Source: Rhodothermales bacterium (GTDB lineage Bacteria; Bacteroidota; Rhodothermia; Rhodothermales; JABDKH01). Taken from it: a stretch of 48,543 bases of DNA. Below are positions 23,558 to 33,138 of this stretch, in pieces (position 1 is the first letter of the stretch; each line of letters opens with the position of its first letter). The stretch is taken from assembly GCA_013002345.1 (NCBI GenBank), contig JABDKH010000187.1:1-48543 (forward strand). Reading direction: 5' to 3'. Below the pieces are notes generated by a model. That model was given only the letters and a program-made list of their open reading frames with translations, was not told the DNA's origin and ran no database searches. The position numbers and the translations under genes were made by a program.

Positions 23558-23631
<74 letters not shown>

Positions 23632-23637
23632 CGCAAG

Positions 23638-23726: not shown

Positions 23727-24158
23727 TCAGATCGGCGATCTGTCTAGCTCAGCACGGATCCACGCCACAATCTCCGGATGATTCCGGGCTACACGATCCA
23801 GCAACCTGCCAACGTCTTCCTTATCGAGTCGATCGACCAGATGGCTGGCCGCCTGCGACACAGGACTTGCATCAGTCTCCTCAAGACACGCGAGGAGTGC
23901 GGCGACCACGTGCTTGCACCACGCTCCCGCAAAATAGGGGCATGAGCATTCCACGCTCGTCACCACCTTGTCGTTGTGTCGTATCCGAATGTTGTATGGG
24001 ACATATTGACTTCCTTTTACAAGCGCGTCGATGGTAGTCTCGGAAGTTCGCTTGAGTGAAACGACCGCTCCTTCACGCTGATACCTTTCGCCACGATCGT
24101 ACGAGCCTTCTGCCGCGTGATCATGGACGTAAGACGTGGTCAGACCCGGTACCTTCAT
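23727..24158 (-). CDS. SWIM zinc-finger protein
   Basis: A 143-residue protein with a SWIM-type zinc finger, CSCPYFAGAWCKHVVAALL (CxC...CxH), at about residues 90-108. Before it is the common lead-in seen in such proteins: SYDRGERYQREGAV, then VKGSQYVPYNIRIRH. SWIM domains bind DNA or protein partners. In bacteria small SWIM proteins often accompany SNF2 helicases, but none is here. The C-terminal 35 residues are helical and charged. I start it at the ATG at 24158 because the conserved part begins there. An ATG at 24332 would add 58 unconserved residues and overlap the divergent gene at 24313. The 154-base gap to that gene puts both promoters together, so it may regulate, or be coregulated with, the Rieske cluster; this is inference. 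Confidence 0.75.
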   Translation of the reverse strand: MKVPGLTTSYVHDHAAEGSYDRGERYQREGAVVSLKRTSETTIDALVKGSQYVPYNIRIRHNDKVVTSVECSCPYFAGAWCKHVVAALLACLEETDASPVSQAASHLVDRLDKEDVGRLLDRVARNHPEIVAWIRAELDRSPI

Positions 24159-24312
24159 GGCAAGTCGATTTAGTTTGGTGAAACGCTGCGCTGTCGGCAA
24201 TCTGCCCGACAATTCGGACACTGTCCTGAGTGATTGAAGGTAACGTTTTCCCGTTTTCGAAGACCTACATTCCCGTAACCGCCCCATTCCTATGACCCGA
24301 CAATAGAGCCCC

Positions 24313-26295
24313 ATGCCAGACGACACGAGCAAACCTCAAGAACCCGCTAAAATAATGTGGCACAAGGTTCTGAATCCCGATGAACTGCCCGAGGGCCGCG
24401 TTCAAAGTGTCACCTGCGCACATAAGACCCTCTGCTTGACCCACTTGAATGGAAGCTACGGTGCGCTTGACAACAGGTGTCCACACCAGGGCGGCCCGCT
24501 GGGCGAAGGTTCCATCGAGAATGGACTCCTGCGATGTCCGTGGCATGGCTGGGACTATGACCCTCTTTCAGGAAAGGCACCGGGCTTCGATGACGGTGTA
24601 GAGTCGTTCCCGGTCGAGAAGCGTAGCGACGGAATCTATGTCGGCCTCCACGCCGAGGTCGAACGAACGCGGACCGTGTCAGACGTGATGACGGACACAA
24701 TGATCGCGTGGGGCGTGCGATGGGTCTTCGGTATGGTTGGTCACTCGAACCTTGGCCTGGCGGATTCCCTGCGCGCGCAGGAGGGCCTCGGGCAGTTGAG
24801 ATATATCGGCATTCGCCATGAAGGTGCAGCGTCGTTCGCCGCCTCGGCATACGGAAAACTGACCGGCCGACCCGCCGCCTGTTTCAGCATTGCGGGTCCT
24901 GGAGCCACAAATCTTCTTACTGGCCTGTGGGATGCGAATGTTGACCGGTCGCCAGTTCTTGCCCTGACGGGCCAGGTGGACACCCAGGTCCTGGGTCCGG
25001 GCGCGTTTCAGGAAATCGACCTGCAAGCCGCGTTCGGACGAGTCGCGCAGTGGAGCCAGTCAGTCCTTCACAGCAGTCGCCACGCGGAACTCATGAATCT
25101 CGCCTGCAAGAATGCGATTCTCAACAGAGGCGTATCGCACTTGATTTTTCCGGACGAGGTACAGTCACTTGAAGCAGCGGAATCGCCGGCGGGGAAACCG
25201 AACGGGCGCGTGACGACAACAGACATCTCCCCGCCGTCGGAAAGTCTAGATCGAGCCATCGCCCTCCTGTCCGACTCGGCGCGGCCCGTCATCATTGTTG
25301 GTCATGGCGCTCGCAACTCGATGAATAGCATCATTGAGCTTGGAGAAGCGTTGTCGTGCCCCATCATCACCACCTTTAAGGGGAAAGGGCAGATCTCCGA
25401 CCGTCATGAACTCGGTTGTGGCGTCCTCGGTCGAAGCGGAACGCCGATTGCGAGTTACTTCATGAATGAGGCCGACTTGCTTCTTGTTTTCGGTGCAAGC
25501 TTCAGCAATCACACCGGTATCTCGAGCAAGATTCCGATTATTCAGGTGGACTTCGACCCGATGGCGCTGGGCAGATTCCACTCGGTGGAAGTCCCGCTAT
25601 GGGGAGATGTTGGAGTGACGGCGTCTCATCTTTTGCAAAGTCTGCTGGAGAGTCAGGCCGTTGACCAACGCGCAGAAATCGCTGAACGCTGGCGAATCTG
25701 GAGACAGGAAAAAGAGAGTCGGCGCAGTGATGACCGCGGTGAGGGTATCAACTCCGCCCAGATCTTTGAGGTGCTTACGGAGACGTGTCCGGCAGATGCA
25801 ATCATTGCCGTCGACGTGGGTAATAATACCTACTCGTTCGGACGGTACTTTGAATGCGAGCACCAGACGGTTCTCATGTCGGGCTATCTCGGGTCGATCG
25901 GATTCGCCTTTCCGGCAGCGATGGGAGCGTGGGCCGCGACACAGGAGAAGGACTCACCGTTTGCCGGGCGGCCCGTCGTGTCTATCTCCGGCGATGGTGG
26001 ATTCGCTCAATACATGGCTGAGTTGACGACGGCCGTGAAGTACGGGATGAACATCACGCATGTGTTGCTGAACAACAGCGAGTTGGGCAAGATCTCGAAG
26101 GAGCAGCGAGCCGGTAACTGGGACGTCTGGCAGACGTCGTTGACCAATCCGAGTTTCGCTGCGTTCGCAAAGCTATGCGGCGCACGAGGCCAGCGAGTGA
26201 AGACGGCAAACGACCTCCGCGCGGCAATTGAAAAAGCCCTGCTTCACAACGGACCGAGTCTTGTTGAAGTCCACTCTGACGCTCTCCTGATATAG
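24313..26295 (+). CDS. Rieske [2Fe-2S] domain fused to a thiamine-diphosphate-dependent enzyme
   Basis: A 660-residue fusion. Residues about 14-113 are a Rieske domain with both ligand pairs intact: CPHQGGPLGEG (Cys56, His58) and CPWHGWDYD (Cys75, His78). Residues about 118-660 are a full ThDP enzyme of the acetolactate synthase/pyruvate oxidase type. The PYR domain has RHEGAASFAASAYGKLTG, with Glu170 as cofactor-activating acid. A central domain follows near 311-440 (RPVIIVGHGA). The PP domain has GDGGFAQYMAEL from residue 560 with the metal-binding pair Asn587-Asn588. Such enzymes cleave or join 2-oxoacids, and the oxidases pass electrons onward; here the Rieske centre is a plausible acceptor or donor. 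It is first of three genes; the next starts 24 bases on. Each domain is clear; the substrate is unknown, and I do not know this fusion from a characterised enzyme. Confidence 0.9.
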   Translation: MPDDTSKPQEPAKIMWHKVLNPDELPEGRVQSVTCAHKTLCLTHLNGSYGALDNRCPHQGGPLGEGSIENGLLRCPWHGWDYDPLSGKAPGFDDGVESFPVEKRSDGIYVGLHAEVERTRTVSDVMTDTMIAWGVRWVFGMVGHSNLGLADSLRAQEGLGQLRYIGIRHEGAASFAASAYGKLTGRPAACFSIAGPGATNLLTGLWDANVDRSPVLALTGQVDTQVLGPGAFQEIDLQAAFGRVAQWSQSVLHSSRHAELMNLACKNAILNRGVSHLIFPDEVQSLEAAESPAGKPNGRVTTTDISPPSESLDRAIALLSDSARPVIIVGHGARNSMNSIIELGEALSCPIITTFKGKGQISDRHELGCGVLGRSGTPIASYFMNEADLLLVFGASFSNHTGISSKIPIIQVDFDPMALGRFHSVEVPLWGDVGVTASHLLQSLLESQAVDQRAEIAERWRIWRQEKESRRSDDRGEGINSAQIFEVLTETCPADAIIAVDVGNNTYSFGRYFECEHQTVLMSGYLGSIGFAFPAAMGAWAATQEKDSPFAGRPVVSISGDGGFAQYMAELTTAVKYGMNITHVLLNNSELGKISKEQRAGNWDVWQTSLTNPSFAAFAKLCGARGQRVKTANDLRAAIEKALLHNGPSLVEVHSDALLI

Positions 26296-26319
26296 AGTTC
26301 TTCTATCACGCGTGATACA

Positions 26320-27168
26320 ATGAGCAACCTGAAACTCGGACAAGTCGACCCGAAAATTCTGACGGATGCCCGTCTCGAATTGCACTGGGCGGCGCAGATC
26401 CTGGGTTCGGTCGGACTGACGTACGGCGTCGCCGCCCCAGACTTCAGCCATACGAGTTTGACCTGGATCGAAGATCCTCCTGCGTTTGGCAGTCCACCGC
26501 TCGGTGACCGGACCGCAGCCCGATTTGCACTAAAACTCGACGATCTGAGTCTATTGGCCTTTGACGAGAATGGATCAACCCGACACCCTCTTGCGGGGCA
26601 GACTCTTGACGCGGGATATCACTGGCTTTCAAACGAGGTTGCGACACGCCTCGAAAAGACAGAGGTGAAGCAGCTAACACGATTCGACCATGAAATGCCC
26701 GGCCATCCGCTCAAAGACGGCGCGGAGTTCGCGGCCGCCCCGGCCGAGCACTTCGCCGAGCTTGGTCGTTGGTATGCGACCGCGTTCCAGCTACTCCGCA
26801 ATTTCTCAGCCAGGACACAGGCGGCGTCGGCGGTGAGATGTTGGCCTCACCATTTTGACGTGGCTTCGCTGGTCCAGATCGACCCAAACGAGGAGGGTGA
26901 AGAGGCACGGTCGATAGGCGTCGGGATGAGTCCCGGCGACGGAAGATATGCTGAGCCATACTGGTACGTGACCCCCTGGCCGTACCCTGCGGCCCAGCTT
27001 CTGCCCGAACTCGATACGGGTCGCTGGCATACTGAAGGGTGGGTCGGCGCCGTGCTTACAGGTACGGAGTTGGTCGATCAATCGAAACATGCAGACCAGA
27101 AGGACTTCATTGATGGCTTCTTACAGAAAGCCGTCTCCGCCTGTCGCACCGCGTTGAAGAGTGACTGA
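26320..27168 (+). CDS. Unrecognised 282-residue protein between two Rieske fusion genes
   Basis: I do not recognise a family. The product is soluble, with no signal peptide or membrane segment. Visible features are an N-terminal helix RLELHWAAQILGSVGLTYG, an aromatic and acidic middle, the segment VRCWPHHFDVASLVQI around residue 177 (a Cys and two adjacent His that could bind metal), SIGVGMSPGDGRYAEPYWYVTPWPYP near 204-229, rich in aromatic residues, and a C-terminal helix. It begins 24 bases after the Rieske-ThDP gene and ends 47 bases before the Rieske-glutamate-synthase gene on the same strand, so cotranscription is very likely. It may be an accessory or substrate-side enzyme of that pathway. 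Function is left open. Confidence 0.8.
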   Translation: MSNLKLGQVDPKILTDARLELHWAAQILGSVGLTYGVAAPDFSHTSLTWIEDPPAFGSPPLGDRTAARFALKLDDLSLLAFDENGSTRHPLAGQTLDAGYHWLSNEVATRLEKTEVKQLTRFDHEMPGHPLKDGAEFAAAPAEHFAELGRWYATAFQLLRNFSARTQAASAVRCWPHHFDVASLVQIDPNEEGEEARSIGVGMSPGDGRYAEPYWYVTPWPYPAAQLLPELDTGRWHTEGWVGAVLTGTELVDQSKHADQKDFIDGFLQKAVSACRTALKSD

Positions 27169-27215
27169 AAGGCGCCCAGAACTCTCCGCCAAACTCCAAT
27201 CAAACCGATGAATAC

Positions 27216-28853
27216 ATGAATCCCGCTGAAACAACGCATGCCTTGAAGGTCGCCACCTGGGGTGAACTCGCGGATCGCACTCCCATGTACGCCCTCGCAG
27301 AGTCAGTCGATCTCGTGGTGGTCCGATACGACGACAATGTATCCGTACTCTACGGACGCTGTCTGCACCGCGGCGCCCTGATGTCGGACGGACACGTCGA
27401 CGGGCACAACTTGATATGTGGCGTCCATGGATGGGATTATCGATACGATACCGGTGTCAGCGAGTACGACAATTCGGAAGTGCTGCACAAATTTGCTGCA
27501 TGGGTGAGTCTCGATGACGACGCGGTCTATGTCGACCGGCACGAAATAATGGAGTGGACGAAGGAGAATCCACAGCCGTATCAGCGGGAGGAATATCTCG
27601 GTCTGTATCAAGACGTCCACGGTGGACCGGAGGAACCGTTCAATGCCTATGTTCAGGAGCTCGCAAGAAACGGCCTCAAGAGCTTCGGACATCACGGCAA
27701 GATGTCCGCCATGGGTGTACCTCTCACCGACTTGCCGCGATGGGACGACATCCAGATCCTGACCGCGCAGCTGGCGCGCCGGCCGCTCGAAGATGATGCT
27801 GGAGTCGGCACCGAAGTTGTCATCGGGCCGGGCGCCGCCCGGCCGCTGTCGCTTGACATCCCCATCTTTGTCAGTGACATGAGTTATGGCGCGCTGAGCG
27901 AGGAGGCGAAGACTGCCCTGTCGATCGGGGCCGAGCAGGCCGGCACCGGAATCTGCTCGGGTGAAGGTGGTATGCTTCCGGAGGAACAGCAGGCCAATAC
28001 ACGCTACTTCTACGAGCTCGCGTCTGGAAAATTCGGCTGGGACCTCGACAAGGCCTGCCGATCTCAAGCCTTCCACTTCAAGGCCGGCCAGGGAGCCAAG
28101 ACGGGTACCGGTGGACATCTTCCGGGCGAAAAGGTCGTCGACAAGATTGCACAGGTACGGGGGTTGGAGCCCGGTACGCCGGCGATCAGTCCTTCGCGTT
28201 TTCCCGACCTCGTAACGGCACAGGATTTCTCTCGGCTGGCCGACGCAATCCGCGAACGAACCGGCGGGATTCCGATCGGATTCAAGATGTCGGCTCAGCA
28301 TATCGAGGACGACATCGACTTCGCACTTGACTCGGGCACCGACTACATCATCCTGGACGGTCGTGGAGGCGCGACGGGTGCCGCACCGGAGATCTTCAAG
28401 AACAATATCTCCGTACCTACGATGGTCGCTCTCGCGCGGGCGCGACGTCATCTGGATAGCCGCGGGGCCGAAAAGGTCAGCCTCATCATCACTGGCGGCC
28501 TGCGAACGGAATCGGACTTCGTTAAGGCACTTGCGCTCGGAGCAGACGCGATAGCTATCGCGAACTCCGCGATCCAGGCAATCGGTTGCCTGGGAATGCG
28601 CGCCTGCCACACGAACAACTGCCCCGTCGGTATCGCGACGCAGAAGAAGTCACTGCGATCACGAATCATCATCGAGAAATCGGCAGAGAGATTGACGAAC
28701 TATCTCAAGGCTACCGTTCATCTCATGCAGATCCTTGCGCGAGCCTGCGGACACAATCATCTTGGCCAGTTTGAGTCAAGAGACCTTACGACATGGAAAC
28801 CCGATATCGCCAGGTTGACCGGTATCTCTTTTTCTGGAGTCGGGATGTCCTGA
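27216..28853 (+). CDS. Rieske [2Fe-2S] domain fused to glutamate-synthase-type FMN/3Fe-4S domain
   Basis: A 545-residue fusion. Residues about 8-108 are a Rieske domain with CLHRG (Cys49, His51) and CGVHGWDYRYDTG (Cys68, His71). Residues about 150-530 are the FMN-binding core of glutamate synthase: PIFVSDMSYGALSEEAKTAL near 216, GICSGEGGMLPEE near 245, GQGAKTGTGGHLPGEKV near 291, SPSRFPDL, ILDGRGGATGAAP near 379, and CLGMRACHTNNCPVGIATQ, with Cys458, Cys464 and Cys469 spaced C-x5-C-x4-C exactly as in the 3Fe-4S site. The glutaminase domain and its N-terminal nucleophile Cys are absent, so it cannot release ammonia from glutamine by itself. It is more likely an oxidoreductase passing electrons between FMN, 3Fe-4S and the Rieske centre. 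Last of the three-gene unit. Domain calls are sure; the reaction is unknown. Confidence 0.9.
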   Translation: MNPAETTHALKVATWGELADRTPMYALAESVDLVVVRYDDNVSVLYGRCLHRGALMSDGHVDGHNLICGVHGWDYRYDTGVSEYDNSEVLHKFAAWVSLDDDAVYVDRHEIMEWTKENPQPYQREEYLGLYQDVHGGPEEPFNAYVQELARNGLKSFGHHGKMSAMGVPLTDLPRWDDIQILTAQLARRPLEDDAGVGTEVVIGPGAARPLSLDIPIFVSDMSYGALSEEAKTALSIGAEQAGTGICSGEGGMLPEEQQANTRYFYELASGKFGWDLDKACRSQAFHFKAGQGAKTGTGGHLPGEKVVDKIAQVRGLEPGTPAISPSRFPDLVTAQDFSRLADAIRERTGGIPIGFKMSAQHIEDDIDFALDSGTDYIILDGRGGATGAAPEIFKNNISVPTMVALARARRHLDSRGAEKVSLIITGGLRTESDFVKALALGADAIAIANSAIQAIGCLGMRACHTNNCPVGIATQKKSLRSRIIIEKSAERLTNYLKATVHLMQILARACGHNHLGQFESRDLTTWKPDIARLTGISFSGVGMS

Positions 28854-32619: not shown

Positions 32620-33138
32620 CTAGACCGCGGTCCTTGCGCGCTCGTACGTTTCAAAGCGGTAGCCATCGCGATTCTCAACGCAGGTCAAAGTGAAGAGCGT
32701 ACCTACCAGATGCTCGAAAGGCGGAAAGAACGTGTCGCCCACGTAGGAGCCTTCGACCAGGGTTAACTCCAACCTGTCGGCCTGCTCGAGGAATTGCTCG
32801 TATATGTGCCCGCCGCCGCCGATGTAAATGCGTTCCACGTTCTCGACGGCGGCGAGTGCAGCCTCGATGCTGTCGTACGTCTCGACACCGTCATAGCCTT
32901 CGAACGCGCTCCGACGGGTCAACACCACGTTGCGTCGGTCTGGCAGCGGTCCACCGAACTGATGAATCAGCGATTCAAATGTCTTGCGTCCCATTAACAA
33001 CGGATAACCTGTCGTCAGCTGTTTGAATCGCTTCAGGTCTTCCGGAATACGCCACGGTAGATCTTTATCTACACCGATGACGCGATTGTCCTCCGCGAGG
33101 GCGGCAATGATGACGATCTCAGGTCGAGGGGTGTGCAT
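32620..33138 (-). CDS. folA: dihydrofolate reductase
   Basis: Reduces dihydrofolate to tetrahydrofolate with NADPH in the cytosol, renewing the cofactor consumed by thymidylate synthase. The 172-residue product shows IIAALAEDNRVIGVDKDLPWRIPEDLKRFK from residue 9 (described in part), the trimethoprim-site region, then PLLMGRKTFESL near 46, the NADPH-binding motif, and IYIGGGGHIYEQFL near 105. Length is usual (160-180). It lies 23 bases downstream of thyA on the same strand, the classic thyA-folA pairing, and is convergent with the amidase gene. Confidence 0.97.
   Translation of the reverse strand: MHTPRPEIVIIAALAEDNRVIGVDKDLPWRIPEDLKRFKQLTTGYPLLMGRKTFESLIHQFGGPLPDRRNVVLTRRSAFEGYDGVETYDSIEAALAAVENVERIYIGGGGHIYEQFLEQADRLELTLVEGSYVGDTFFPPFEHLVGTLFTLTCVENRDGYRFETYERARTAV

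Follow-up and report, generated by a model that had tools for sequence, protein, structure and literature searches.

The 48,543-nt contig JABDKH010000187.1 of a Rhodothermales bacterium (assembly GCA_013002345.1), called here the window, carries a three-gene cluster in which two enzymes have an N-terminal Rieske domain. One is a Rieske-fused thiamine diphosphate (ThDP) enzyme, ThDP-R, the other a Rieske-fused glutamate-synthase-core protein, GltS-R, and a DUF5996 protein is encoded between them. We propose, with a probability of about 0.5, that this is a portable redox cluster in which ThDP-R would act as an oxidase and GltS-R as a synthase, both linked by their Rieske domains to a shared pool of electrons. 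The three open reading frames (ORFs) are on the plus strand, all start with ATG and are separated by 24 bases (ThDP-R/DUF5996) and 47 bases (DUF5996/GltS-R). A first-pass annotation, made from the letters of the window alone, had described them as one probable operon; the shared strand, the short spacers and the linkage conserved in other genomes agree with this, and indicate that the cluster is a real, widespread, operon-like unit. Neither Rieske/ThDP or Rieske/GltS fusions nor, as the annotation had supposed, a pathway of such layout were found described in the openly licensed literature, and homologous clusters were neither assigned to a known pathway nor unlinked in relatives. The rest of that interpretation was supported in part.

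Two enzymes with N-terminal Rieske domains

The Rieske domains of ThDP-R and GltS-R share the ligand pattern CxH-x16-CxxH, and alignments of both showed none of the extra disulfide cysteines of the bc1 type. They resemble in these respects the ferredoxin/dioxygenase-type Rieske domains, from which their fusion partners, a ThDP enzyme and a glutamate synthase, set them apart. The whole window genome (4.1 Mb, 97% complete) gave four Rieske matches, and the other two proteins are of the bc1 type, with the disulfide cysteines (CTHLGC...CPCHG and CTHLDC...CACHN). The ligands of ThDP-R were kept in 81 of 81 rows, a conservation that is partly by construction, since the genome scan selected for the peptides CPHQGGPL and LRCPWHG[WY]; protein searches free of this motif bias agree on the ligands. 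Both ligand sets, as well as Glu170 and the GDG...NN motif of ThDP-R and the C-x5-C-x4-C cysteines of GltS-R, were located at the residues given in the first-pass annotation.

In ThDP-R, Pfam recognised the Rieske domain (1.2e-16) followed by TPP_N (1e-32), TPP_M (2.7e-31) and TPP_C (5.5e-34), and both the activating Glu170 and GDG...NN (residues 560-588) are present. The best model was that of the pyruvate oxidase PRK08611, which scored 387 bits and missed the NCBIfam equivalog cut-off of 742, and the closest solved relative by sequence was E. coli PoxB. A maximum-likelihood tree, in which several reference rows were long-branched, placed ThDP-R in one clade (100/100), sister (93/89) to PoxB, YdaP and LpPOX and apart from IlvI, Gcl and Oxc. 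Glu597 is the glutamate typical of pyruvate oxidases (POX), at a position where acetohydroxyacid synthase (AHAS) carries a tryptophan. The tree and the missing tryptophan ruled out an AHAS or acetolactate synthase identity, on which the fold search cannot discriminate, as the structure model (pTM 0.80) matched POX and AHAS equally well. ThDP-R has in common with the POX group (PoxB, C. glutamicum PQO, YdaP and LpPOX) the ThDP fold, Glu170 and Glu597, and is nearest to it in the tree; it differs in its N-terminal Rieske domain, in having Lys593 for phenylalanine, and in lacking the C-terminal membrane tail of the PoxB/PQO subtype, since the protein stops at the core. ThDP-R is most likely a flavin adenine dinucleotide (FAD)- and ThDP-dependent pyruvate (2-oxoacid) oxidase, and its place in the pyruvate-oxidase clade favours the 2-oxoacid substrate suggested by the first-pass annotation. 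Because the POX glutamate is kept and the PoxB membrane tail is missing, the Rieske domain probably takes the place of this tail as the electron outlet.

GltS-R combines a Rieske domain (1.2e-10) with a Glu_synthase domain (2.9e-89), and its core aligns to GltB. Gln292, Lys295, Arg315 and the three cysteines of the 3Fe-4S cluster were conserved in 40 of 40 rows, and the first three residues also in E. coli GltB. We take them to be Q969, K972 and R992 of A. brasilense GltS (positions by counting), which presumably bind 2-oxoglutarate. GltS-R is thereby like GltB and the ferredoxin-dependent glutamate synthase (Fd-GltS) in its flavin mononucleotide (FMN)/3Fe-4S core, 2-oxoglutarate residues and cluster cysteines. 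It is unlike them in the fused Rieske domain, in His301 for glutamine, and in the absence of an adjoining GltD and of the glutaminase and GXGXG domains; Pfam detected no glutaminase domain in its 545 aa. The most likely function of GltS-R is ammonia-dependent glutamate synthesis. The first-pass annotation had also considered the oxidation of an amine-linked substrate; with the 2-oxoglutarate-binding residues intact, glutamate synthesis in the reductive direction is the more likely reaction. The window genome has two genes of the glutamate dehydrogenase type and, apart from a single weak partial match, no further glutamate-synthase core and no classical GltB. A second GltS-R paralogue (52%) in another genome (L041; G182:C25:5114-6703) has lost most Rieske ligands, reading SLYQG and lacking the Cys-x2-His.

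The N-terminal module of the GltS core is exchangeable. Tandem CDGSH replaces the Rieske domain in Vibrio fortis (L058:5680-7230) and in an Escarpia symbiont (L142:11966-13495), and a rubredoxin-like Cys4 motif does so in Monoglobus (L202). The fusion of tandem CDGSH with glutamate synthase is the architecture of type 5 CISD proteins (PMC3174974, PMC5859297), for which we found no report of function. These have the same GltS core (53% overall in Vibrio) and a His-ligated [2Fe-2S] module at the N terminus, which is CDGSH (3Cys-1His) instead of the Rieske domain (2Cys-2His) of GltS-R. The gene of the Escarpia symbiont is directly 3' of a ThDP-R gene, which ties type 5 CISDs to the cluster. The interchange of unrelated one-electron modules at the same position is the most compelling reason to think that electrons enter the GltS centre from the Rieske domain, which most likely serves it as a built-in one-electron donor. 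The module swap also supports the earlier reading of the Rieske domains as electron modules.

Distribution, linkage and candidate electron partners

The scan for ThDP-R covered 84,980 species genomes and yielded 80 loci (60-73% identity) in at least 15 phyla, including Halobacteria. GltS-R was at most 10 kb away in 43 of them, on the same strand in 42 and upstream in 35, with a median gap of 129 bp, and DUF5996 was nearby in about 30 of the 80. In 22 of the 37 loci with no nearby GltS-R, the gene is found at another place in the genome, so that both enzymes co-occur in 65 of 80. The same-phylum sample of 297 genomes, including the window genome, had DUF5996 homologues in 26 genomes, full-length GltS-R in 37 and ThDP-R in 8. 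Fisher tests on the 296 other genomes, uncorrected for relatedness, gave p values of 8e-21 for GltS-DUF5996, 1.4e-5 for GltS-ThDP and 1.2e-3 for ThDP-DUF5996. When GltS-R and DUF5996 were on one contig in other genomes, GltS came first and the strand was the same in 18 of 18 cases, the reverse of the window, where DUF5996 comes first. The linkage of the three genes is conserved and the gene order of the window is not, since GltS-(DUF5996)-ThDP is usual and ThDP-DUF5996-GltS unusual.

Orthologues across phyla are 52-75% identical and nearly all keep the cofactor and ligand residues, which argues that the architecture is not due to chance. The ThDP-R and GltS-R distance matrices of linked loci were correlated (r=0.70, 0 of 2000 permutations as high), as may be expected from co-inheritance, but also from plain common descent. 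On haloarchaeal plasmids the two genes are 1.4-17 kb apart; a Mycobacteroides plasmid has ThDP-R and no GltS-R within the stretch read. Single cluster genes are found as well on plasmid islands of haloarchaea and cyanobacteria that hold many different redox genes. This would fit genes that share no chemistry and are associated on stress islands by chance or just through co-regulation. The same-strand linkage with short gaps in at least 15 phyla and the co-occurrence p values make such an association quite improbable.

The genes near ThDP-R in the 80 loci included a Na+/H+ exchanger (14), a ferric-reductase-like membrane Rieske protein or its partner ORF (12), malic enzyme, a source of pyruvate (6), and AMP-binding enzymes (5, three with an acetyl-CoA-synthetase N-terminal domain). 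The Poisson values for neighbour counts, which assume per-genome copy numbers, were 3e-9, 1e-13 and 1.4e-5. The AMP-binding neighbours are weak evidence for acetate use because several acyl-CoA synthetases are mixed among them. The membrane protein (Ferric_reduct+Rieske) carries the nearest Rieske domain found to that of ThDP-R (35-43% in best pairs, E to 8e-23). Its partner ORF, adjacent or fused, has no Pfam family and a conserved KC-x2-G-x(n)-H-x2-C-x3-C motif, and both lie between GltS-R and DUF5996 in three genomes (G139, G077, G127). These observations suggest that ThDP-R and GltS-R might exchange electrons with a membrane carrier instead of with each other, typically this b-type protein and through it the quinone pool. 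We regard this as a tentative option, somewhat unlikely overall, as the protein is not near most loci and its gene is not in the window genome, whose total of four Rieske matches does not include it. This absence rules it out as an obligatory partner.

It also counts against a shared pool fed through that protein, and further points weigh against the proposed redox cluster. No GltS-R was detected in 15 of the 80 ThDP-R genomes, and in the phylum sample GltS-R was found in 36 of 296 genomes versus 7 for ThDP-R, most GltS-R genomes being devoid of ThDP-R. Neither enzyme needs the other, because each occurs alone. Lys593 was invariant in the ThDP-R rows examined, at a position where PoxB and LpPOX have phenylalanine (F479 of LpPOX) and where the YdaP-type reference also deviates (methionine), suggesting that the substrate or electron path of ThDP-R may differ from those of known pyruvate oxidases. 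GltS-R has His301 where GltB has glutamine, and no biochemistry was found for any cluster member.

The separate occurrence of the two enzymes bears above all on the claim of the first-pass annotation that they form one mutual chain, and makes such a chain less probable. Such a direct chain would convert pyruvate, 2-oxoglutarate and NH3 into acetate, CO2 and glutamate, with electrons passing from Rieske to Rieske and no NAD(P)H. It is thermodynamically downhill by textbook potentials, and would fit the tight same-strand linkage (42/43), the matrix correlation, the frequent co-occurrence, the lack of classical GltB in the window genome and the absence of bc1-type disulfide cysteines from both Rieske domains, unlike the other two of the genome. 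Yet the phylum sample is much richer in GltS-R than in ThDP-R, the correlation may reflect common descent, and binding between ThDP-R and GltS-R is hypothetical, so that we consider a direct chain unlikely. Its fullest form, an NAD(P)H-independent route coupling pyruvate decarboxylation to glutamate synthesis with the help of DUF5996 and spread horizontally across bacteria and haloarchaea, is quite doubtful. The invariant Lys593 and His301, unlike characterised relatives, and the highly variable wider gene neighbourhoods would suit a novel catabolic route, in which ThDP-R uses another 2-oxoacid (Lys593 could hold an anionic one, for example) and GltS-R another amine/oxoacid pair. The intact 2-oxoglutarate-binding residues of GltS-R and the malic enzyme near some loci speak against it, and it appears improbable.

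The DUF5996 protein and other features of the locus

The middle protein, "unrecognised" in the first-pass annotation, is by its homologues a divergent DUF5996 protein. Alone, the window copy had no Pfam or NCBIfam match, and its similarity to DUF5996 (PF19459) is weak (E 0.006, 16.1 bits for a cut-off of 25); of its 35 aligned homologues, 20 match the family, with a best value of 7.9e-56. Invariant or nearly invariant residues are H22, W175-P-H177-H-F-D180, G202, D207, Y214, Y216 and W236. The AlphaFold2 model is confident (pLDDT 94.6, pTM 0.92) and had no fold match in the PDB at E<=0.001, nor was a solved relative found by sequence. A resemblance of its halves to frataxin was weak (TMt 0.45, probability 0.33) and was not trusted. 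No paper naming DUF5996 was found in the openly licensed literature. In the f15 family, a DUF805-containing protein is encoded between GltS-R and DUF5996 (L175:6857-8230, L180:9425-10810).

Table 1. Features of the three-gene cluster (window coordinates) and examples of the membrane Rieske protein (coordinates of their own loci)
Feature	Position	Strand	Evidence
ThDP-R, POX-clade ThDP enzyme with N-terminal Rieske domain, 660 aa	24313..26295	+	Pfam, alignment, tree
Rieske [2Fe-2S] domain of ThDP-R; C56, H58, C75, H78; low-potential (ferredoxin/dioxygenase) type	24358..24582	+	
TPP_enzyme_N of ThDP-R, activating Glu170	24673..25029	+	Pfam, alignment
TPP_enzyme_M of ThDP-R, central, presumed FAD-binding	25246..25629	+	Pfam; FAD inferred from sister POX clade
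TPP_enzyme_C of ThDP-R; GDG...NN, POX-type Glu597, invariant Lys593	25813..26271	+	Pfam, alignment, tree
Divergent DUF5996 (PF19459) protein, 282 aa	26320..27168	+	Homologue matches, conserved residues
GltS-R, FMN/3Fe-4S glutamate-synthase core with N-terminal Rieske domain, no glutaminase domain, 545 aa	27216..28853	+	
Rieske domain of GltS-R; C49, H51, C68, H71	27249..27455	+	Pfam, alignment
Glu_synthase core of GltS-R; 2-oxoglutarate residues Q292, K295, R315	27837..28754	+	
3Fe-4S cysteine motif of GltS-R, C458-x5-C464-x4-C469	28587..28622	+	
Membrane ferric-reductase-like Rieske protein, examples	L139:7811-9597, L094:2110-3921, L131:6466-8280, L173:8866-10727		

The Rfam and tRNA scans found a single feature, a tRNA-Pro (CGG; 23558-23632, plus strand) upstream of the cluster. 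Sigma-70 promoter matches were not above chance, and 8 terminators were observed versus 4.8 expected. A divergent SWIM zinc-finger ORF (23727-24332, minus strand) has a nominal 20-base overlap with the start of the cluster, and the TTG taken as its start codon is probably too early. A dihydrofolate reductase-like ORF 3.8 kb downstream (32620-33138, minus strand) is probably unrelated; on haloarchaeal plasmids, an annotated dihydrofolate reductase gene is just 3' of GltS-R (L053:11707-12189, L054:12062-12547). Mainly in Bacteroidota, a hydrophobic protein of about 130 aa with no known family is encoded directly 5' of ThDP-R (L139:9597-9989, L158:9587-9985, L161:9593-9976, L183:7784-8170).

Proposed function of the cluster

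From the domains, conservation, linkage, clade, active-site residues and module exchange, we infer the substrates, the FAD, the direction of the GltS-R reaction and the electron transfer of the redox cluster proposed here. ThDP-R would decarboxylate pyruvate to acetate and CO2 using FAD and ThDP, and its low-potential Rieske domain would be the electron outlet, a role held in PoxB by the membrane-binding tail that enables quinone reduction. The Rieske domain of GltS-R would act in cis as ferredoxin does for Fd-GltS, delivering single electrons to the 3Fe-4S/FMN centre, where 2-iminoglutarate, formed from 2-oxoglutarate and NH3, would be reduced to glutamate. DUF5996 would be an accessory protein, tied mainly to GltS-R. 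Where ThDP-R and GltS-R co-occur, their Rieske domains could let them draw on one electron pool, either directly from each other or through a shared partner, for instance the membrane ferric-reductase-like Rieske protein near many loci. Judging from its neighbours, the cluster may help cells under salt or ion stress to keep their redox balance and to supply glutamate.

A Rieske one-electron module has been added to each of two enzyme families of central metabolism, and the two have been kept together in bacteria and archaea, over at least 15 phyla. The cluster gives a context to DUF5996, to type 5 CISD proteins and to the uncharacterised membrane ferric-reductase-like Rieske protein, and lets the idea of a soluble Rieske-based electron circuit between carbon and nitrogen metabolism be put to the test.

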